Source: Apostichopus japonicus
Lineage: Eukaryota > Echinodermata > Holothuroidea > Aspidochirotida > Stichopodidae
Direction of reading: 5' to 3'
NCBI RefSeq assembly: GCF_037975245.1
Contig: NC_092576.1
Location: 23,791,111-23,855,110, forward strand
DNA: 64,000 bases
In this document: positions 14,992 through 64,000 of the stretch, one piece after another
Position numbering within the stretch: the first letter of the stretch is position 1
How the letters are laid out: each line of letters starts with the position of its first letter
Made by a program: the position numbers and the translations under genes
Notes under the pieces: generated by a model
Database searches by the model: none
What the model was told of the DNA's origin: nothing
The model's input: only the letters and a program-made list of their open reading frames with translations

Positions 14992-15063
14992 GCGTCCATG
15001 GCCTAGTTGGTTAGGGTGTCCGCGTACAAAGCGGGAGGCCCGGGTTCGAATCCCGGTGGAGGC
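14992..15063 (+). tRNA. tRNA-like gene or tRNA pseudogene, anticodon ACA
   Basis: A 72-nt cloverleaf can be drawn: acceptor 14992-14998 with 15057-15063 (one G-G mismatch), D stem 15001-15004 with 15014-15017, anticodon stem 15019-15023 with 15031-15035, loop GTACAAA (anticodon ACA after U33), 4-nt variable region, T stem 15040-15044 with 15052-15056 and loop TTCGAAT. A box TGGCCTAGTTGG and B box GGTTCGAATCC are canonical. A T5 Pol III terminator follows at 15070-15074. ACA would read Cys UGU; cytosolic tRNA-Cys normally carries GCA, so a pseudogene or the head of a SINE is likely. Related heads, also starting GTCCATGGCCTAGTTGG, occur at about 50697-50767 and 22531-22600. Confidence 0.6.
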
Positions 15064-15113
15064 TGGAAGTTTTTCACTTTTCTGGATTTTCCTTCTCATT
15101 ACGTTTTCATTTA

Positions 15114-22300: not shown

Positions 22301-25300
22301 CACTTTGAAAAATACGTTATCGGTAGCCTAAAAATATCTTTCGATATAATGTAAGTAAAATGCTTGTTTGTTATGGCTTACGCAGTTTCGTGTGACAAAT
22401 TGAAACACTTCTCTCTCGGCACTGTAATTAAAGCCCAAAATAGTCCAGAAACAGATCCCGACCAATAGCTAAAGACTTCCGGCTGTGACACTAGATTTCC
22501 AAGTTTCAATTCAAGTGAGAACATTTTTAGCCCCCACCGGCACTCGAATCCTGACGTGCCCCTCAACTTGCTCTCTTCCCTAACAATTGGGCTTTGGACT
22601 GATTGTAGGTAGAGACCAGTAAGGAAGGTCGCCATTCACTTCTAGGTCTTGCCTTTATCGAACAATGCTAGTCCTGTTTGGTGATAGTCTTTGCATTAGT
22701 CTAGAGATCAATCATAATGCTAAGCAGCTCAACAAGTATATTGTCCGATCATCGTCATTCATAAAAAGATGAATTTCAATGGCGTTCATCTAATACGAAG
22801 CATTAGTCTAAGTAAATACAATAAAACGTAAACAGGTTTAGACGTTGACGTTACTCTGTTTGGCAAACATGAAATATTTTGCGACTACCAATTGGCTGCA
22901 AAAATTAAGGTAAACAATTGCATTTATATATAACATTATATGTGTTATTATGCAATGTCAAGAAAGCTATCCAATTTCATCCAGATCTAAGTTTTGACTT
23001 AATGCTCAATTTTTAATTAAATGTTTTTATTAGAGGTCTGTTAGTAGATAGATGGCCGAAGGGTTGGGACCAGTGGCGGATTGGCCACACGTTGAACCTT
23101 TTCACCGATGCTTACTAGAGCGTTTGGCTTGCCTACAAGCTGATGATAACGCTACCTGTGTCACAAGTGGCATATGAACGTTCTTTCTCTGCCTTGAAGA
23201 GAATCAAACACCGTTTGAGAAGTACAATGACACAAGAACATGTTGAGGCGTTCATGTTGATGTATGTGGAAAAAGGGATCTTGGCCAAACTTGACACAAA
23301 ATATATCATCGATGGTGTGGCTGCCAGAAACAGCGAACTGCGTAGGCTTCTACTCTCGTAGACATGACATGTGCTCGTGTTATTGAACATATATGTTTTA
23401 GTGGATTTTATTTAGGTTTTGTTTTTCAATTTTTTAAGCATGTCGTCACAAATGCTTGAAAAACCAATTAAAATTCAGTCTAAAACATATATTTTTGCCT
23501 ATTTTGGTTTACGTTTTAACATTCCTCAGAAAGTGTTGCTTCTGGATATTATTTTTGGGTCTTTTTTAAAGGATTATATTAACCTACAAAATTGAAAAAT
23601 ATAGCACCATTTTGCATCTAGGCCAACACATCTCAACGCGGAGGGGGACACCCCTCCCCTTAGACCCTCCCCCAGGACTGCGATCACTAGTAAGTAATAT
23701 ATCAATGAACAATGGGCCGGTCTAGGGAATAATGCCCGGGCCGGTTTTTAACACCCAGTCCGCCCCTGGTTGGGACTACTAACTCAGTAGACACGGCTAA
23801 CCTATAGAACAATGTTGAGTTTACTTAACTCATAATATATCTAGATGGAATAAACAATTAGTAGAATGGTAGTAACGTCATTCATAGTTCACTTCTTAAC
23901 AAGCTTTGTAATGTTTCGGATATATTAGGCAATATTTTTATACTACTTGCAAAGGTCGTTCATGCAAAATGTAATGTGTTGTGTTCTAACCGAGTATTTT
24001 TGCTTTGTTAAATGAGGTCAAGTTACAAGTCACTCATAATAAAGTCAAGTGATAAGTGAATTTCATTTGCATCAAGGCAAGTCACAACTTATTTGATTAT
24101 AAATTTAAAATACAGTTAAATATAACAACAACCAATGAAGTCAGTCTCTAGGTCAAATGACACATTAACAGCTTAGGTTTAACTAGGATTATTGATGAAG
24201 TGTCTCGCGTCAAGTGGATGACATGTACAATTTCCTAAAATGCCATGATTTAAAACAGGGACTTTATTCTACCTCTCCCAATTCAACTATGACATGAACT
24301 GAAATTGAAATCATGAAACACGACAAAACAATATTTATTATAGCTGAACTGATTACAGTTATTACCAAGATACTACCTTTAGGAATCACTTAACTGAACT
24401 TTCATATCAATTGCTATTGCCAACAATATGCCCATAATGCAATAAGTTTAGATTAAATAATTGTATATCCCACATTACTTATGATCCTAAAGCTTCAACT
24501 GTATATTTCATGTCCCAAAAGGAAGATTTACTTTAATGTTTTTTTGATGCTAATAGTAACTAGTCCTATGTAGCATATTTAGCATAACTATCAATGGCCC
24601 ATAAAAACAAACCCTACTTAAGAAGTGAAGAGAATTGTAACACTAAAATATTAATTTCTAGGGTGTTAGTTAATTGGACTGTTTACATTGACATTGAAAA
24701 GATGACAAAAAACCAAGAGAATTAAATTATATTCCACCCACCCCCCCCCCCCCCAGTGGCATATGACATCACAAATTAGCAAAGGGTAGCTCCATGCCAC
24801 GACGTTACAAATAAAATTTACTCCCGTACCTTGCAAAATAATGGTCTTATATATTTTAGGGTAAGTTTATCACAAGGATCTCCGTTATATAAGTTCAGTA
24901 TGATGGTTTGGGATTCCTTCCATTTAATCCTAAGGTATGTTTAGGCTAACACTAAGAATGACTTAAATTAATTATTCTAAGTATAGATATTGTAGTCGTC
25001 GCGGTCACAAGTAGAATTTGATATATTTTCACATGTCAATCATCATCGAAGTCTGATTTGGAATATGTTAATGAGATAAATCGATGATGTGTCATTTTAA
25101 ATCGACATATCATCAATTTAAACTGGTAGATGGCGAACTAAATTGACATATACCGATATATTTTACAAATCATTGATTTAAATTGGTAAAAATCTAACTA
25201 AATTGGTATAAGTCGATTTAAATCTGTTTATGCTGATTTAAACTGGTATAAGTCGATTTAAACCGGTAGATGTCGATTTAAATGACATATACCGATTTAT

Positions 25301-26527
25301 TTTACATGTCCTAGATTTAAATTGGTAAATGTATATTTAAATTGTTGAAAGTCGAATTAAACTGGTATAAGTCAATTTAAATCGACATCTGCCCGGTTTA
25401 AATCGATGATATGTCAATTTACATCGGTAGAAGTCAATTCAAGCTGCTAGAAGCTGGTATAAGTCGATGGAAATCGGTATATGTCAATTTAAATCGTTAT
25501 ATATCGATTCTCCACGATTTGAGACTGATGGCCCGCCGTAGAGGCCATGGTCTATCGCCAACCTCTGCCAGAAGATACGATGATCACGTGGCTTCGCGGC
25601 GACAGCGTACAGTAGTGGATGATGTCACTTAATGATGTAATTTAATAAATATTCAAAAGGTAAAGCAATTACCCAATACCATCGTTATATAATGAGACGT
25701 ATTCTTAGATAGTATTACCATTGTATAATCAACGACATGAAGGTTAATTCTTCTTATTTTAATACGAACAATTTCCAGTAATATCATTCTTTGTTATTCT
25801 AATCAGTTTGTTTCAAAATTCGCAACCATATACACAATTAGTATATGCAAGCTGGCTTAAAGGTTCCATGCCACTTAGCTACATATAATTAAATATAACA
25901 AGGTACCGTTATAATGGCCGCTTAAGGACAACCATGCAGATACAGGCTGTCCACTTACATATATATTTCTCTCTATTTATCTGCCTTTGTCAAAAGCTCG
26001 CCCTAAACGAATTCGGTGCTGTATATTACGGAGACGCTGCTATACGATTCAAGGAATCCCTTAAAGTATTGCTTCCAGGAATTGAACGTCACTATGGTTA
26101 CATGACGTGCATTCTAAACTTTAATCCAACGGATCCCAACTTTATACATCATTATCAACTAACTGTACCAAAGATGTTCATTAAACTTAGCGTAGATAGA
26201 GACGAGTACCGTGATTGCATCAATTGTGCTCCACATATACAACCAGGTACACAGCTAATTATAAATAGCACCACAATTCAAACGAAGCTCATGCAACCAT
26301 GGCTACAATGCGCTATGGAAAAAGAATGTATCGCGCCTACGGGTTCAAGCAGAGCAAACCACCGACAAGACGCATCTGCAATCACTCTCCTTGTTTATAA
26401 AAACCTGTTTGGAGAATGGACGGTGGAGGATAACGATACCAAGAAGATGCAGGCAGTTGTAGCCGTTAGGAGAAGTACAGACGGATTCCAGCATCATCCA
26501 CAGTATTGTGTTAATGACAAAATATGA
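19369..26527 (+). CDS. Type II membrane glycosyltransferase-like protein, paralogue A, four exons
   Basis: Exons 19369-19462, 20782-21092, 21866-21970, 25997-26527 (GT-AG, phases 1, 0, 0), 346 codons. Exon 1 gives a short cytosolic tail and signal anchor (about residues 5-21, [15 protein letters not shown]), so the body should face the Golgi lumen. The body reads [30 protein letters not shown], then [38 protein letters not shown] and a late [20 protein letters not shown]. This looks like a GT-A-type fold (nucleotide-binding first half, YGD as the candidate metal/donor site) of the uncharacterised DUF1647-like sort; donor and acceptor are unknown. Oddities: an in-frame 81-nt duplication in exon 2, and a displaced exon 2 acceptor, because the site used in paralogue B (here 20751-20752) would lead to a TAA after five codons. 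The introns hold a SINE, a hAT relic and a tandem array. AATAAA lies at 26756. The gene structure is solid by comparison with B; the function is inference. Confidence 0.75.
20446..20535. repeat. Two-copy 45-bp tandem repeat in intron 1 of paralogue A
   Basis: Two adjacent units share gctttttcagttacctta and aactatcgatat with few differences. Not seen at the matching place in paralogue B. Confidence 0.75.
20832..20993 (+). repeat. In-frame 81-bp tandem duplication inside exon 2 of paralogue A
   Basis: Unit 1 (20832-20912) and unit 2 (20913-20993) both encode D[11 protein letters not shown] followed by VLIT. Unit 2 continues into the conserved SDNHY segment, whereas unit 1 ends SDKNI. Paralogue B has one unit. 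The duplication adds 27 residues without breaking the frame. Confidence 0.9.
22380..22640 (-). repeat. tRNA-related SINE in intron 3 of paralogue A
   Basis: The - strand carries a B-box-like GGATTCGAGTGCC followed by a GCCGGTGGGGGC end (about 22531-22600), then about 150 bp of body toward 22380. The same insertion is at the corresponding place in paralogue B (50520-50860), so it predates the duplication. The head resembles the tRNA-like gene at 14992. Confidence 0.6.
23071..23768 (+). mobile_element. hAT element relic with perfect 8-bp target duplication
   Basis: Left end CAGTGGCGGATTGG, right end the reverse complement of CAGGGGCGGACTGG. The 8-mer gttgggac flanks both sides (23063-23070 and 23769-23776), the target duplication size expected for hAT. 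The frame 23143-23361 encodes the C-terminal dimerisation region of a hAT transposase (LPVSQVAYERSFSALKRIK, then MTQEHVEAFMLM). At 698 bp it is an internally deleted derivative without the catalytic part. It lies in intron 3 of paralogue A and is not apparent at the matching place in B. Confidence 0.9.
25060..25510. repeat. AT-rich tandem array of about 20-bp units in intron 3 of paralogue A
   Basis: Degenerate units built on taaactggtataagtcgatt and aaatcgacatat are repeated for about 450 bp. Many contain short self-complementary steps such as ATTTAAAT and ATCGAT. Not found at the matching place in paralogue B. Confidence 0.8.
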
Positions 26528-31800: not shown

Positions 31801-31835
31801 GCGGTTGACTTAAAATATCTTCTTTATATTGTGTT

Positions 31836-31878
31836 TGCTTGACGTTTCGATCCTAGCAGGACCTTCTTCAGAGGTTAA
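31836..31878 (-). ncRNA. Hammerhead-ribozyme-like core of a Penelope-like element 3' end, copy 1
   Basis: On the - strand: CTGAAGA (31871-31865), an extra A, stem II GGTCC with loop TGCTA and GGATC, then GAAACGTC (31848-31841). These follow the hammerhead boxes CUGANGA and GAAA and the GUC cleavage triplet. Stem I is weak here. The next bases leftward match the other copies less well. Confidence 0.5.
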
Positions 31879-32019
31879 TTGACAAGTAGCAGTAACAGAA
31901 GGGTGTTACCTACAAGAGCAGGGTGCAATTCGGCGTGTTCGAATACAGGCTATCCGACCAATATATAGACACAGTACAAGAAATTCAACAACACATTCAA
32001 TATAAGCTTGGTAATAAAT

Positions 32020-39200: not shown

Positions 39201-39285
39201 AATATAAAGTGAAAATAAAATAAAACTGTTAGCAAACTGCTTATCCACTAGAGAGCCTGAGTAGGAGAATGTATAAAAGTAAGTT

Positions 39286-39328
39286 GGCCTGACGTTTTGA
39301 TCCTAGCAGGATCTTCTTCAAAGGCTAA
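39286..39328 (-). ncRNA. Degenerate hammerhead-like core, copy 2
   Basis: On the - strand: TTGAAGA, extra A, GATCC-TGCTA-GGATC, then AAAACGTC. Compared with the better copies, the first box has C to T and the GAAA box has G to A, so catalysis is not expected. Stem I AGCCT/AGGCC is still mostly pairable. Confidence 0.5.
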
Positions 39329-39399
39329 ATGACAAGTAACAGTAACAGAAGGGACAAAAACACGCACAGAATACAGACAGGTTAATGAGCATGGTGAAC

Positions 39400-39640
39400 A
39401 CAAAGAGATAGATGTAAGGGGATAAGTAGACAAGGGATGGAGAGAAGAAAGCAACAGGGGAAGAGGAGAGGTAGGAGATAGACAGTGGAGGGACAAATGG
39501 AGGATTAAGGGAAGGGGTTAGGGAATAACTGGAGAAGGACAAAAACAGACAGGTGTGGAGAAAAGAGGTGGAAGAGAGCTATGAGAAGAGGAGTGAAGGG
39601 GAGGGGGGACAAAGGAAGAGGGAGAGGGGGCAGGAGAAAA
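39400..39640. repeat. Polypurine tract
   Basis: About 240 bases that are almost purely A and G on the + strand. Lies within the Penelope-like 3' UTR. The - strand open frames over it (S/L/P-rich) are artefacts. Confidence 0.8.
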
Positions 39641-40128
39641 GTTAGTCATGTCCTTCCTAAATTTTGAGCCCATGAGGTTGAATGTTGCGAAGGCGTTGCA
39701 TCCACAGCCTCTCTCTGCTGATTCGTACTAGGTTAAGACGGCTACCTAAGGATTCAATCCCCTGTAGGGAAATGTCGTTAATGGTATATCATACAGTTGT
39801 GCCTATTAATACTCATGTCTTCTTTGTTCTGATTAGTATCAAGCTTATCTCAAAGCTTACATTTATTTTATTCTGATAGACATTTTGATGATGGCAATTA
39901 CAAGATCTGAAATTTCATAATCATGGTGAAACAAGGAAGGGGTGTACCTTAACACTTTAGCATTTTGTTATCAGTTACCAATAATCTGAATTATTTTTAA
40001 TGGTAGAATAGATATGAATTACCCACACAACCAGGTTTGGCAGTCACCTACGTACTTGCCACTTCATAATAATGCTTGTAGTTATGTAGCCGTGCAATAT
40101 CCCCTCCCTCCCAAACACCTGGAAAGCC

Positions 40129-47121: not shown

Positions 47122-47316
47122 TGGCCTACGTTCAGTTAAATATTTGAAGTTAGATGTAATTAAATACATGTTAGGTTTGTTAAGAGAATGTCGACGAAGA
47201 TTGGAGTGTTCAGAAACTGGGAATCCTGCGAAATTATCACCAAAATAAAAATAAAACTATTGGCAAACTGCTTATCCACTAGAAAGTCTGTTTAAGAGAA
47301 TTTGTAAACTTAAATT

Positions 47317-47357
47317 GGCCCGACGTTTCGATCCTAGCAGGATCTTCTTCAGAGGCT
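47317..47357 (-). ncRNA. Hammerhead-like core, copy 3
   Basis: On the - strand: stem I AGCCT, CTGAAGA (47352-47346), extra A, GATCC-TGCTA-GGATC (stem II, 5 bp), GAAACGTC (47329-47322), then GGGCC pairing with the stem I strand through 4 pairs including a G-U. Confidence 0.55.
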
Positions 47358-47424
47358 AAATGACAAGTAAAAGTAACATAAGGGACAATAAACGCACAGA
47401 ATACAGACAGGTTACTTGTCATTT

Positions 47425-47465
47425 AGCCTCTGAAGAAGATCCTGCTAGGATCGAAACGTCAGGCT
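47425..47465 (+). ncRNA. Hammerhead-like core, copy 4 (best copy)
   Basis: Stem I AGCCT (47425-47429) pairs perfectly with AGGCT (47461-47465). Between them: CTGAAGA (47430-47436), one extra A, stem II GATCC/GGATC with loop TGCTA, then GAAA and ACGTC ending at 47460. The predicted cleavage is after GUC. Stem III would be only the palindrome ACGU, which can pair between two RNA copies but not within one. Known biology: Penelope-like elements carry hammerhead motifs. The extra A before stem II departs from the consensus. Confidence 0.6.
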
Positions 47466-47470
47466 TACTT

Positions 47471-48204
47471 ACTTTTACAAAAAAAGATCACCAAGTGAAT
47501 TTTTACAAAAAAAACAACATTACAATATGTTAATGACGTTGCTAGGGCCACAAGAAAGTGAAGAGGTTCTAAGACCACAGTCAACATTGATCATATTAAT
47601 CACGGTGCCTGAGTTATTATGGGGGCATATTTGGCACCGAGGTTTACCGCAACTTTGTATACTCTATATAGCCGATACTAAATACAGTGAAACGAATGTG
47701 CTATGGCAATTGGACCACCTTTTGGAAAACCAACGATCCCATTATTCCTTGGGTGATTAGTTCGGTACATACAGCGAAATGACATGCATCTCCCCCACCC
47801 CCCTCCTCCTCCACCCTACCTGCAAGAAACACTGACCCTTACGTCTCTGCTAGTAATCAATCATATAAACAATAATTAAATGAAATCATAATATCGATAA
47901 TGTCCTATGTGTTTTGCTTTTTATATACAAATATTTCAGTTAAAGACAAAACATAAATGTTTTGATTCCTTGACTAAACTCGAATTGAGTCTTTGGCTTT
48001 TCCAAATTACGCGTCTATCGTTGTATTGGTTCACCCAGTCACTTATTATTTTGTTGCTTTGCAGGTAATTTGTGTTTGTACATTCGAGCTTCCTTAAAAA
48101 AAACATTTTGAATGTTACAGTTATATATGAGTTCTGATGTTGTACTACAGTCCTTCGACTTGAAAGCTCACACGTTTTCCATTACCGTAGTCGGCTAAAA
48201 GTGA
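47471..48204. other. Intergenic, no gene seen
   Basis: A C-rich patch lies near 47790-47815. The open frame 47527-47760 has no recognisable content. Confidence 0.4.
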
Positions 48205-49857: not shown

Positions 49858-52800
49858 TACATTTTACTTACTTTAGTACATATAAGTACATTTTACAAGT
49901 ACATTTCACAACTCAAATGCATCTTTAACCCCCAGCCCCCCAAACAAACAAAAAAACCGGTGGGATAACTGCACATTGATGTAAATATGTTCTTACTTCG
50001 CTTTTGGTTAATACAGGTTAAAAGACTCTGCAATGTCGAACTGCGGATGTTTAACTTCAGTGATTATCCACAACATGTCAGCGATTTGAATACTTACGCA
50101 TGGAAGGCAATACTAATCAACGTGAGTTCTCATTATAATATCGCTTTATTGTGTTTGGATGATTTTATCCAGTTCACTAAGTTGTTAGTTTCACACATTA
50201 CGAAATATACTCAACAAATCGAAAGTTTTTATTTTTAGGGGTAAACCATTTGAATGCGAAGTAAATATTTTGGTAAAAATATATAGTTTTCGATTTTCCT
50301 TTAATAATAGCATTTTTTGAACTTCAAAAGGAGTAAACATTCCTAAGCAACCATTTACAGACCTATTTGGTACTACTGTATTTGTACCAGAATGTTTCTT
50401 CTAGGTATATTTCTGTTCAAAGCAGTTACAAGCAATACTCTTTGACCCACTTTGAAAAAATACGTTATCGGTGGTATACAAATATCTTTCCATACATGGT
50501 AAGTTAAATGCTTGCTAGAATTTTCACATTTGTTATGGAACACGCAGTTTTGTATAAACAATTGAAGCACTTCTTTCGGCACTACAATTACAACCCAAAA
50601 TAGTCTCCCTTGCACCCAAAAAAGATCCTGGCCAAAGCAAAGGACCTCCGGCTGTGACACTAGATCTAAGTATCAATTAAAGTGAGAAACATTTTAGTCC
50701 CCACCGGGACTCGAATACTGACGTGCCCCTCAACATGCTCTCGACCAAAACCAACTAGGCCATGGACGGATTGTAGGTCCAGTGGTTCCAAACAAGTAAG
50801 GAAGCCCGCCATTCCCCTCAATGCCTTGCCTTTATCGAACAATGCTAGTCATGCTTGGTGATAATATTTGCATTAGTCTAGAGATCAATCATAATGCTTA
50901 GCAGCTCAACAAGTATATTGTCCGATAATTGCATTCAACCTTCTAAAATCTCTGCAAAATCGGTTTGTGCCATCCCGTTTTCGGACTAGCACTACTGGTG
51001 ATGCATAGGCTGAATTTGATTCTTCATACTAACCATTTTATGAGAGTTTCAACCTCTTCCCTAATGACATCTCGTACCGCAATTTGAACTGGCTTTGACC
51101 TTACCGGATCACTGGACGTTCATTGAATACTCTGCTAAATTAAATATTTCCTATAAGACAAATCTGTTATTTTGTCTAAATACTCTTGTAAGAGGTCTCT
51201 CATTACCTTTACATGACAATCATTAAGATCTTCAATAATCTTGAAATCACAATAACATTCTTTTGATTTGATACAAGTGAATACTATCCCAATTTCATTC
51301 TTTTCATCAATGTTATCCTCACCCTGCAAACTAAACCTACTGACACAGCAAGCATAACCATTTCATCTCCTATATCTTCATTAGTTTTATTTTCTTCATT
51401 TACATAACCACTTTCCATCCCAACCAAACAGCAGTTTTTCACATTCTCTTGTAATCACTTTTTTATGTTAGCATGATATAATGTTTCATAGCCTTTGACA
51501 TTCAGTTTGTAGTCATTTTTTCTTAACTTCTCTACTATTTTGTAGGGACCTAGCCATTGGGTAAACAATTTGTTAGTACTTGAGGGCATGAGCGAAATCA
51601 CTTCTTCACCCAGTTTTTTTTGTCTTACACTTTGCGATAGCGCTTTGACGATTTTGACAACTTTCATACGCGATTCGACAGGTTTCTTCTAACCATTGCT
51701 TGAGGTTGAACACATATTGGTAAGTTGTTTTCACCTCGTCCTGAATTTCATTGGACCAAATGTCTTTCAGAACATCTCGGGGGCTACGAATCGTTCTGCC
51801 ATACAATAGCACAAAGGGCTAAAAACACATGCTTTCCTGTGGGACCTCACTATGAGCAAAGAGAAGTGCATGCAAGTAACGATCCCACTCAGATGGGCGT
51901 TCTGCTGGCATTTTTTAACATGCGATTCAATGTCACGTCAAACCTTTCTACCAGACCGTTACACATAGAGTGATACGGGGTAGTATGAAGCTGCTTCACC
52001 CCCAACTACCTCCCTATTTCCTTCATCAAATCTGAAGTGAACTGACTTCTCAAATTAGAAAAAAGATTTCTTTTGGCACACCTACTTTAGAAAATATATC
52101 AATCGATGCCTCAGCAACAGTTCCAGTATCCATCCATTTTAGAGCAACAGCTTGTGGGTATCTAGATGCGTAATCTACCAGAGTCAAAATATACCGGTTG
52201 CCTCTGTCAGTAACTGGGTCAATAGGCCCCACCAAATACATAGCTACTCTTCTAAAGGGTGTATCTATTAAGGGCATCTCCCCTAATGGTACCTTTGTAA
52301 CCGACACCCTTGGAATTGTCCTCTGACATAACTCACAAGAAATACAATAACGTTTCACATCACCATTAATACCAGTAAACTGTTGTAATGATGCGATTCT
52401 TTGCCGTCTGTGCGCCTAACTGTCCAGACATTGGAGTGTCAAGAGCCAGTTTCAGTACAGTGTCTTTAAATTTTGTAGGCACAGCTAATTGTCTTACAAT
52501 TTGGCCTCGTCCCATCTTAGGACTTGTAAATTCACGATACAGCATTCCATCACAAATTTGATCTCATCAGCTTTTCTTAGAAATACACTTGTCCCCTTTT
52601 ACAGCTAATTTCCAAATCTTTGATAAAAATTCGCCGTCTGTTCTCTGTGCTTGCAAAGTTAATCTTTTGATGCAATATCTAGGGCTTACATAACTTTCAG
52701 AGGCTATTCGATTTTTGTCTCCTTGTTTTCACAGCAAACCCATCCATTTGTAATGATTCCAAAATGTGTTTAGAACTGTATATTGCGTTCCAATTTGGGT

Positions 52801-58800: not shown

Positions 58801-60710
58801 TAATCATTATTACCAATACTAGAAAATTATCCACTGCGAGTCGTTCTAGAAATTACATTTACAAATAGAAATCTTACCATTTCAAATGGAAACCAATATC
58901 CTCAGAAAACAGACGGTAGGACTGGCATAGAGGATGTACTGACAACACTAGTGTAAATTACTCATTCTAGACCTTGTAACCTATTCCCCAATTCAATGAC
59001 GCCACTTGCTCAACGAAATAGCGTTGCAAGCATAACTATAATAAAGTAGATAGAAAACTATACACAGTCAAGAAGTCTGTATGACAACTGCTGACAACCA
59101 ATCGTGGTTTTTCCTTTCAAATGAGCACCAACAGTTATTCACTGAAATTGATACCATGCCTCCAACATGTGTTTCTATACAACTTATTCAACTTTGAAAT
59201 TCAGATACAAGCAAGTTATTTCATCATCAAGCATGTCCCTATTGAATTTATGTTATATCTACGTGGCCCTACTTTGTGTACATAACATATTGTAATACAT
59301 TACCTTGTACATCTATAACTACGGAGAGTTTAACAATCCATCAACTTTTAATAGTCAACCTACGGGAGATTTAAATTTCCATACAACTTGTGACAATGAT
59401 GCTCTTTGATTGGCGTACGCGTCAATAGTCTAAATAAGAATTTCAGAGTGCATTTTTAGTACTCAGTTTTACCCAAATAGCAAAAATACGTGCTCAAATT
59501 GTTGATAGGACATATTGCTTTTTCGAGGTTTTATCAGTACTTGGGAGTATTTTTGGTTTCCCCTCTGACCAGTCGACAGAACTGCAAGAATAACGGCTTT
59601 ATTAATAACTGGTTTCCTCAAGACTGTGATGGGTAAGGAAGTTGATAGGGTAAACGACTTCTTGAATATAATGAAATAAAATTGGGTAAATAAATGCGTG
59701 GTGAGAGGCCATGTTCTATCTCCAACCTCTGCCAGATGTTACGACGATCTCGTAGCTTCACGGCGACAGCGTACAGTAGTGGATGATGTCACTTAATGAT
59801 GTCATTTAATAAATATTCAAAAGGTAAAGCAGTAACCCAATAACATCGTTATATTCTGAGACGTATTCTTAGACAGTATTATCATTGTATAGTCCACGAT
59901 TAGAAACATTCAGCTTTAACCATTGCCATGAAGGTTAATTCTTCTTATTCTATTACGCAATATTTCCAGTTATATCATTATCTTTGTATTCTAATAATTT
60001 TGTTTCAAGCTTCACAACCATATTCAAAATTAGAAGCTGTTTAAAAGTGCCATGCCACTTGGTTCACAGAGAATTAATTATAAAAATGCACCGTTATAAT
60101 GGACGTTTATGGACAGCCATGCAGATACAGGCTGTCCATTTATAAATATTTCTCTCTTCTTATCTCCCTTTTGCAACAGCTCGCCCTAAACGAATTTGGT
60201 GCAGTGTATTACGGAGACGCTTCTATACGATTCAAGAAATCCCTTAAAGTATTGCTTCCGGGAATTGAGCATCACCATGGTTACATGACAAACATTCTAA
60301 ACTTCAATCCAACGGATCCCAAATTTATACATCATTATCAACTAACTGTACCAGAGATGTTCATAAAACTTGGCGTAGATAGAGACGAGTACCGTGATTG
60401 CATCAATTGTGCTCCACATATACAACCAGGTACACAGCTAATTATAAATAGCACCACCAATCAAACGAAGCTCATGCAACCATGGCTACAGTGCGCTATG
60501 GAAAAAGAATGTATCGTGCCTACAGGTTCAAACAAAGGGAACCACCGACAAGACGCATCTGCAATCACTCTCCTTGTTTATAAAAACTTGTTCGGAGAAT
60601 GGACGGTGGAGGACAACGATACCAAGAAGATGCAAGCAGCCGTAACCGTTAGGAGAGATACAGACGGATTCGAGCATAATCCACAGTATTGTGTAGGTGC
60701 CATGATATGA
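48588..60710 (+). CDS. Type II membrane glycosyltransferase-like protein, paralogue B, four exons
   Basis: Exons 48588-48693, 49284-49525, 50017-50121, 60180-60710 (GT-AG, phases 1, 0, 0), 327 codons. Residues about 5-25 form a signal anchor with a duplicated GLVS step absent from A. Residues 72-90 [19 protein letters not shown] and 101-109 RIVVYDLGL look like the first strands of a GT-A-type fold; 121-151 CNVELRMF to [10 protein letters not shown]; 157-169 [13 protein letters not shown] is the candidate donor/metal site. Sequons lie at N129, N241 and N245; paired Cys at 225/228. All four exons align with paralogue A at identical junctions, and exons 3 and 4 are equal in length in both (105 and 531 bp), arguing that B is under constraint. 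Intron 3 (10 kb) holds a SINE, a Gypsy relic and a second SINE. Family name and substrate unknown; DUF1647-like is my best comparison. A non-Golgi role cannot be excluded. Confidence 0.78.
49606..49854. repeat. Long (AT)n microsatellite in intron 2 of paralogue B
   Basis: About 250 bp of AT repeats with a few ATAAAT and ATCTAT breaks. Paralogue A lacks it at this position. Confidence 0.95.
50520..50860 (-). repeat. tRNA-related SINE in intron 3 of paralogue B
   Basis: The - strand head starts GTCCATGGCCTAGTTGG at 50767 (A box) with the B box TATTCGAGTCCC and ends GGTGGGGAC near 50697. The body follows to about 50520. Orthologous to 22380-22640 in paralogue A. Confidence 0.65.
50925..54480 (-). 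mobile_element. Gmr1-like Ty3/Gypsy retrotransposon relic (gag-PR-INT-RT order)
   Basis: Reading leftward: gag-like basic region (54194 down); CCHC knuckle [14 protein letters not shown] (about 53290-53245); protease [12 protein letters not shown] (about 53030); linker [20 protein letters not shown] (52915 down); integrase zinc region with CISCELC but both His lost (DTPMSGQLG); integrase core [15 protein letters not shown] and [13 protein letters not shown], with the first catalytic Asp replaced (AMYLVGP); then [28 protein letters not shown] and [17 protein letters not shown]; finally the start of reverse transcriptase, [20 protein letters not shown] with [10 protein letters not shown] (about 51010-50930). 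No RT lies between protease and integrase. Known Gmr1-like elements have this copia-like order. Frameshifts and stops make it dead, and it is truncated inside RT. Paralogue A has no insertion at this place. Confidence 0.8.
54481..55470. other. Intron 3 of paralogue B, homologous to paralogue A intron
   Basis: 54485-54920 aligns with A (22765-22870 and 24300-24660: caatggcgttcat, gaaatcatgaaacac). Then comes a gtcaagtca-type patch (55075-55150). No exon recognised. Confidence 0.5.
55471..55716 (+). repeat. tRNA-headed SINE, copy 2
   Basis: Head 55471-55536: GGAGTGT pairs perfectly with ACACTCC, A box TTAGCTCAGTGG, B box-like GGTCCCGATATCGAGAC. The body matches 9526-9301 read on the - strand. 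It ends in (CATA)n at 55698-55716. Intact tRNA acceptor pairing makes this the better-preserved copy. Confidence 0.85.
55717..59690. other. Intron 3 of paralogue B, unassigned part
   Basis: AT-rich DNA with no recognised exon, including an AT-rich degenerate repetitive patch at about 57000-57310 (attaatcattat/aacaaattaat-type units). From about 59700 (gaggccatg, gccaacctctgccag equivalents) alignment with paralogue A (25540 onward) resumes and runs to exon 4. Confidence 0.5.
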
Positions 60711-60930: not shown

Positions 60931-60993
60931 TTTACTTGGTTTTTGCAGAGCTCTCGAGCAAAACTAGCCCTTCGTCAGTGCGTGATCACCGAA
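60931..60993 (-). mobile_element. 3' terminal piece of a Penelope-like element with divergent hammerhead-like core
   Basis: On the - strand: GCA, CTGACGA (60978-60972), extra A, stem II GGGC/GCTC with loop TAGTTTT, GAGAGCTC (60955-60948), then TGC pairing with GCA. It has the same 31-nt layout as the other cores, with a different stem II, a different stem I and the palindrome AGCT instead of ACGT. It is separated from the rest of the element (63612-64000) by a LINE insertion. Confidence 0.6.
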
Positions 60994-63611: not shown

Positions 63612-64000
63612 AGCAGGAGTTGAAACTATTTCATAGAGAAGAGTGTCGACATGGTTGTGAAGTCAAAGCGACTTACTGATTTCTGCTGGATTTAGCAGAA
63701 GTTTTGGAAAATCGGATTATTGTTTTGATCGCCGATCTATGTTGTGTCATTCTCATTCTTAGACAGGTTTTTGACTCTCCAACGTATTGTAAGTTGCAAA
63801 TATTGCAGTAGATGAGGTAAATGACATTTTTGGATAGGCAGTTTATTTTATGCCGAATTTGGAACGTGCGTTTGGTTTCGTTGCTCTGGAAGGCCCCAGT
63901 CGAATCGACAAGTTAGCACGTTTTGCAAATTTTGTGTACAGGGCGATGATCCTGTAGTTTCTGCTTTGTTTTCCCCTAATGGGGTATCATCCTGACTGAA
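63612..64000 (-). mobile_element. Penelope-like element, GIY-YIG endonuclease end
   Basis: - strand reading leftward: PVHKICKTC (about 63925), then CLSKNVIYLIYCNICNLQYV, GESKTCLRMRMTQHRSAIKT (about 63840-63720). This is the zinc-linker plus GIY-YIG domain that ends Penelope-like proteins (here YLIYC and QYVGES blocks, with the downstream R and H present). An in-frame stop follows CKTC, so it is not intact. The reverse transcriptase would lie beyond the right edge of the window. Confidence 0.8.

Follow-up and report, generated by a model that had tools for sequence, protein, structure and literature searches.

Minimal type I hammerhead motifs of a putative Penelope-like element in Apostichopus japonicus and the record kept by its insertion ends

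Hammerhead ribozymes are widespread in Penelope-like elements (PLEs) according to the consulted part of a review, which terms their role unknown (PMC7761336). Minimal PLE hammerheads have already been published, and the sections of the two sources used here propose that they act as dimers (PMC7761336, PMC6155905). As far as these partial descriptions go, the small PLE hammerheads (Cervera and de la Pena 2014; Lunse, Weinberg and Breaker 2017) are like the motif of Apostichopus japonicus in belonging to type I, having no internal helix III, and occurring both in pseudo-LTRs (pLTRs) and as dispersed copies. They are compared here by description rather than by sequence, and in comparison with those descriptions only the present analysis links dispersed copies to insertion ends. 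The Poseidon PLE of Anolis carolinensis, PAc, is also alike, with RT-GIY-YIG tandem units, a pLTR hammerhead, and two RT start sites, to which an optional tail is tied (PMC11167929). Its ribozyme-dead RNA inserts as well as the normal one, and unprocessed RNA is called the dominant substrate (PMC11167929). In PAc the frame begins at stem II, with the cut 26 bp inside (PMC11167929), whereas here a clear frame does not open until past the motif.

As for the Penelope of bdelloid rotifers, the part of the source consulted describes pLTRs, an optional tail on one inverted pLTR, a mostly head-to-head arrangement, and 8-10 bp duplications (PMC3846280), all of them similar to what is reported below; hammerheads are not a subject of that part. 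Since the tail, the head-to-head joins, and the short duplications are described in that portion of the rotifer study, they are not new (PMC3846280). Type I hammerheads of newt and axolotl likewise have a weak palindromic helix III and cleave better as dimers; however, in the pages used they sit in retrozyme-type tandem repeats and not in a PLE (PMC7229834). The kind of object found here is already known, and what is added is the host element of the first motif family, a second family, the nature of the interval 47317-47465, and the record of insertion ends.

The window is a 64,000-nt stretch of A. japonicus DNA (GCF_037975245.1, NC_092576.1, positions 23,791,111 to 23,855,110) on contig 16 of an assembly of 671.6 Mb in 35 contigs. 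The original prediction placed five copies of a 31-nt hammerhead-like motif in it, and all five are present: copies 1 (31841-31871), 2 (39291-39321), 3 (47322-47352), and 5 (60948-60978) on the minus strand, and copy 4 (47430-47460) on the plus strand. Copies 1-4 have the layout CTGAAGA-A-stem II-GAA-ACGT-C with minor changes. Of the layout claimed earlier, the core, the extra A, and the hairpin hold; the GAAA followed by a 4-nt palindrome does not, because the last A of that GAAA is the first base of the palindrome ACGT, and a search for the literal form (GAAA, 4 nt, C) gives 0 matches in the window. Nor is the layout shared by all five copies: it stands for copies 1, 3, and 4, but the cores of copies 2 and 5 are changed. 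Copy 1 has an intact core, homology confined to 31833-31903, and no stem I, which agrees with the claim of stem I pairing for copies 2-5 alone. Copy 2 (TTGA...CAAAACGTC) has two core changes, from C to T at the first core base and from G to A after stem II.

The cores of copies 3 and 4 are intact, with predicted cuts after the C at 47322 and after C 47460, respectively. In the predicted monomer fold, the 5' strand of stem I of copy 4 (AGCCT, 47425-47429, plus strand) is paired with its 3' strand (AGGCT, 47461-47465, plus strand). Copy 5 reads CTGACGA-A-GGGC-loop-GCTC-GAG-AGCT-C, with AGCT as its palindrome; as its sequence is GAGAGCTC, it has no GAAA. Its last core A is changed to G, a position that we take to be A14 in hammerhead numbering. 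Homology among copies 1-4 is found in five pairings of 52-174 nt with 88-94% identity; copies 3 and 4 align over 186 nt (76%) and form an inverted repeat with 70-nt arms, 91% complementary. By these alignments copies 1-4 are one repeat family, and the flagged copies themselves are ordinary. Elsewhere in the window, 52050-52415 (minus strand) is probably what remains of an integrase (Integrase_H2C2, E 0.0023, and rve, E 0.066, neither of which reaches the cutoff). Similar open frames lie at 60084-60710 and 25889-26527 (both plus strand), with the DNA just downstream 77% alike over 261 nt; the latter matches Lysyl_oxidase weakly (E 0.035, under the cutoff), and the former has no such match.

According to the genome counts, the motif occurs beyond chance, since family 1, CTGANGAA-N(8-20)-GAAACGTC, has 1,743 exact matches versus 18 for the reversed pattern, and family 2, CTGANGAA-N(8-20)-GAAAGCTH with the palindrome AGCT, has 568 versus 28. 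All ANNT forms with C17 give 3,968 genome matches versus 357 for the control; at least 1,657 of them lie beyond families 1 and 2 and represent an undivided mix of CpG decay, other palindromes, and other families. Among the 61 family-2 rows listed with letters, 34 have one and the same sequence with stem II GAGC/GCTC, and several others resemble chance matches.

The position of the hammerhead-like core at Penelope-like 3' ends, as originally predicted, is upheld by the genome: in 29 of 30 fetched endonuclease loci the motif follows the endonuclease motif on the same strand at a distance of 549-590 nt, and only L032 has no downstream motif. An open piece upstream of one motif copy (L027) resembles GIY-YIG endonucleases (E 0.0043, below cutoff). 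The genome search with a 92-residue endonuclease core as query gives 150 scored matches among 2,083 candidates, many of them 100% identical, with open frames of up to 953 aa. On contig 11 the units are in tandem with a spacing of 3,249-3,252 nt and a head-to-head flip in orientation. A 592-aa open piece of L055 matches RVT_1 (E 3.4e-9, 37.1 bits vs 29.6) and, towards its C-terminal end, GIY-YIG (E 1.6e-4, 22.3 bits vs the cutoff of 22.6, that is, 0.3 under Pfam's). The PDB sequence search with the endonuclease piece returns a single match with E 0.97. On the evidence of these domains and their order relative to the motif, the host element of family 1 is read as a PLE.

The window itself holds a putative 5'-truncated 3' end of this PLE with copy 2 at 39212-39787 (minus strand), 85.6% identical to L055 over 589 columns and of the LONG class defined below, including a predicted C-terminal remnant of the RT-endonuclease frame at 39645-39788 (minus strand; 85% over 48 residues, E 4e-20). 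The sequence just past the end of the PLE array in L055 is 77% identical over 389 columns to 23404-23768 of the window, which is probably another repeat. Several head-to-head endonuclease pairs have open frames of equal length on their two arms (for instance C8:41308452/41311507, C16:8303633/8304966, and C14:1267973/1271824, with 577/577, 298/298, and 714/714, respectively), as if both arms were truncated at one point (palindromic copies); other pairs differ.

Positions along the element are counted from the first motif base (0), the C before the predicted cut being 30. Most sampled insertions end either at 51-60 (SHORT, ~21 nt past the cut) or at 108-115 (LONG, ~80 nt past it); SHORT ends fall at 51-53 in the majority and at 49 in copy 4 of the window. 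Atypical ends are seen in the second arm of L008 (90), the second copies of L020 (102) and L028 (99), the first arm of L064 (103), the second arm of L049 (64), L032 (69, truncated at the locus boundary), and copy 1 of the window (38). No insertion in the sample ends at the predicted cut. Of the head-to-head pairs whose outer ends could both be classed, 12 of 12 combine a LONG end with a SHORT one (L008, L014, L017, L019, L030, L031, L044, L052, the window, L043/L045, L047/L048, and L039/L040), a count that includes L039/L040, which lie at a distance of 5.6 kb and are perhaps separate insertions, and L008, whose LONG arm aligns only to +90. L049 is left unclassed, with one LONG end and the other at +64. 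Left out of the pairs are L020 (two diverging LONG ends 4.4 kb apart, the right copy with its own candidate duplication), L028 (both copies LONG and on the same strand), and L063 and L064, where the arms continue into the element and are not outer ends. In vitro, PAc has no start-site difference between strands, in contrast to one SHORT and one LONG end per classed pair here (PMC11167929). By analogy with that element, the SHORT and LONG ends suggest two internal RT start sites.

Candidate target-site duplications, 8-14 bp long, flank 7 of 9 pairs (L017, L030, L031, L044, L049, L052, and the window; p 0.002-0.03); the L014 pair has a weak candidate (p 0.09), and none was found for the L019 pair. 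Among single insertions, where L003/L009, L006/L010, and L007/L011 are the same places and each is counted once, 9 of 16 have candidates with p <0.02 (L003, L006, L007, L012, L018, L020, L021, L022, and L024), those of L003, L021, and L024 sitting 5-13 nt off the aligned ends. L016 has a candidate with p 0.034, and for 6 of the 16 there is none. As for the 5' ends of long copies, 6 of 9 stretches near them cross the cut site, arriving from upstream element sequence (L059, L061, L063, L064, L065, and L066), and L060, L062, and L067 show other joins; in none of the nine does a 5' end start at the cut site, as ribozyme-made ends would. The sampled insertions span the cut site, and the copied RNA was therefore uncut there or re-joined. 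Uncut templates agree with the unprocessed RNA that serves PAc as substrate in vitro (PMC11167929).

In the light of these classes, the interval 47317-47465, which holds copies 3 and 4, is part of one small head-to-head insertion of two 5'-truncated PLE ends. According to the arm alignments and end classes, the insertion occupies 47244-47486, the right edge being approximate. Its arms at 47241-47414 (minus strand) and 47411-47479 (plus strand) are 89% and 96% identical to the genome's element, with few shared bases at the junction. The left arm has a LONG 3' end (the tail) at 47241-47321 on the minus strand, whose first 3 nt overlap the duplication, and the right arm has a SHORT 3' end at 47461-47479 on the plus strand, as given by the arm alignment and the end class. 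The candidate 8-bp target-site duplication ATCACCAA, supported by the arm alignments and the repeat test, lies at 47236-47243 on the left and at 47487-47494 on the right, where it begins 7 nt past the aligned end; p is 0.02 versus random places in the same 3 kb. The reading of the two motifs as a working dimer fails here: one is antisense to the other within the insertion, so copies 3 and 4 form no cis dimer, and that candidate was rejected. In one transcript the opposite-strand arms would pair together, which likewise leaves no two sense hammerheads in cis. Among the 100 ANNT places listed, neighbours less than 4 kb apart comprise 6 head-to-head, 1 converging, and 2 same-strand pairs (2,969 and 3,145 nt).

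In many insertions the 5' end lies shortly before the motif ('solo hammerheads'). Among the 25 different places selected by motif on contig 1 (L001-L028 without the three repeated ones), the 5' end is at -5 to -15 in 11, at -16 to -75 in 1, and further up in 13, the ends of L014 and L005 being those of gapped alignments. If the 12 nearest ends were uniform over -5 to -75, the probability of at least 11 in -5 to -15, a stretch chosen after the data had been seen, would be 1.3e-8. Insertions L012 and L022 are only ~60 nt long and have candidate duplications of 13 and 11 bp. Exact genome matches number 2,014, 942, and 778 when started at -5, -9, and -13, respectively, a retention of 0.47 and then 0.83; the fall fits a frequent 5' limit beside stem I. 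Three of the places (L004, L008, and L015) read CAGCCT instead of the TAGCCT of others, and 76 nt can be aligned between L004 and L008; a sister family with other upstream sequence may cause part of the fall between -5 and -9. The motif search is blind to copies cut inside the motif, and second arms ending inside it are seen in L044 and L052 (at 26), L019 (at 10), L062 (at 8), and L063 (at 2). The A at -9 lies within TCATTT, with GGATC 28 nt on, and we take the two to fit initiator and DPE strings, which is only a lead. At C2:23018216-23018351 (plus strand) three motifs start exactly 57 nt apart, a possible tandem of near-solo hammerhead units.

The whole is very probably explained by a minimal type I hammerhead of an abundant PLE, with templates uncut or re-joined, pairing of the palindrome between copies, and solo hammerheads from stopped copying. 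The hammerhead would lie in the pseudo-LTR, after the RT-endonuclease frame has ended and before the following tandem unit. Reverse transcription of the element RNA would begin at either of two internal start sites immediately 3' of the hammerhead and pass through it, the inserted templates presumably being uncut there or re-joined. With no internal stem III, the hammerhead would, as proposed for its described counterparts, need two copies paired through the palindrome in order to cut; such pairs can form either between tandem units or between separate RNAs, not between the flagged inverted copies. Solo hammerheads would arise where copying stopped, or the template ended, just upstream of stem I.

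The alternative that survives best is that the motif is kept for some other role (an internal core promoter, protein binding, or an RT-start signal) and that its likeness to a hammerhead is incidental or vestigial. It gains from the covariance-model check, which went against the original prediction: Rfam hammerhead models have no match in the window at the gathering score or with E up to 10. The sole Rfam match at the gathering score in the window is a tRNA at 14992-15064 (plus strand, 54 bits). By letters, copies 3 and 4 have the whole conserved core (CTGANGA ... GAA), stems I and II, and H17; an intramolecular stem III is absent from the motif, which has only a 4-nt palindrome without a loop. 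The predicted fold of the monomer consists of stems I and II alone, and the predicted co-fold of two monomers, which is no measure of cleavage, is a long heteroduplex and not a hammerhead dimer. The genomic record adds two further points for another role, namely that the templates copied into the genome were uncut and that many insertions begin at -5 to -9, at the initiator- and DPE-like strings mentioned above.

Variation within family 1 also speaks for such a role. The 100 places listed for this family comprise 51 identical and 49 variant ones, and among the latter stem II has 48 one-sided changes (19 still pair, 29 do not) and one two-sided change, which is non-pairing; 5 rows are length variants. 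In none of these 49 variants from the 100 listed places is a stem II change compensated, and by these rows stem II of family 1 gives no indication of selection, which is the pattern that decaying copies should have. Between the families, in contrast, one stem II pair and both inner palindrome bases differ and are compensated, in a comparison of two. Helix III does change as a self-complementary unit between the families, as foreseen: it is ACGT in family 1, for which the PLE context is seen, and AGCT in family 2. That stem II and the palindrome differ with core and pairing kept in both families counts against an incidental likeness, and so does the lizard PLE motif, which cleaves in vitro given its protein (PMC11167929). 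We consider the motif unlikely to be kept for another role with only a vestigial hammerhead likeness, although the hammerhead and another role are compatible and do not exclude each other.

It is very unlikely that copy 5 is a chance match outside any ribozyme family. Its core is damaged, and no shared sequence was found between its flanks and those of copies 1-4 in the comparison within the window, both of which would suit chance. In contrast, a motif scan for core, extra A, stem II, palindrome, and stem I with at most one core mismatch recovers copies 3, 4, and 5 in the window, and gives 8 matches in 4,178 Markov sequences of window length, or 0.0019 each, under criteria fixed only after the copies had been seen; with up to two core mismatches there is 1 match in 40 Markov sequences. 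Moreover, copy 5 differs at only 3 of 31 positions from the commonest sequence of the second family (34 of 61 lettered rows), the family with 568 versus 28 matches. On the same strand, 2.7 kb upstream, is an endonuclease remnant of another PLE (63718-63876, minus strand; 47% over 57 residues, E 7.7e-11), although the stretch in between is repeat-like and LINE-like by eye. Chance was rejected for copy 5 on the Markov scan rate and the genome counts of the second family, and this copy looks like a decayed member of that family. As for an animal retrozyme origin, in which the copies would be small hammerhead repeats in tandem, with circular RNAs, and would not represent PLE ends, the same ribozyme type and the one 57-nt-spaced triplet on contig 2 are in favour, but this origin is very improbable and was rejected for the sampled copies, as their flanks are PLE sequence, close neighbours among the 100 places listed are mainly head-to-head with two same-strand pairs ~3 kb apart, and tandem hammerhead units of 150-450 bp were not found among those neighbours.

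The preferred reading, a minimal PLE hammerhead whose copies pair through the palindrome, can be taken one step further, although we hold that step to be unlikely. Besides cleavage, the palindrome may serve insertion: two uncut element RNAs held together by ACGT:ACGT pairing might be copied from both sides of a single target break. One RNA copied from the SHORT and one from the LONG start would yield a head-to-head insertion with one end of each class. With the hammerhead close to the 5' end of the element RNA, copying from a 5'-proximal start site would end just upstream of stem I and leave a solo. The 12 of 12 classed pairs, the 11 of 25 5' ends at -5 to -15, and the fall from 2,014 to 942 matches make such a role in insertion consistent with the data.

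If true, it would account for the scattered minimal hammerheads that animal genomes are reported to contain. The insertion ends serve as a record of the RNA that was copied: it extends across the cut site, starts at two discrete points on the 3' side, and in many cases has a 5' limit just upstream of stem I. This record makes the origin of dispersed minimal hammerheads testable.
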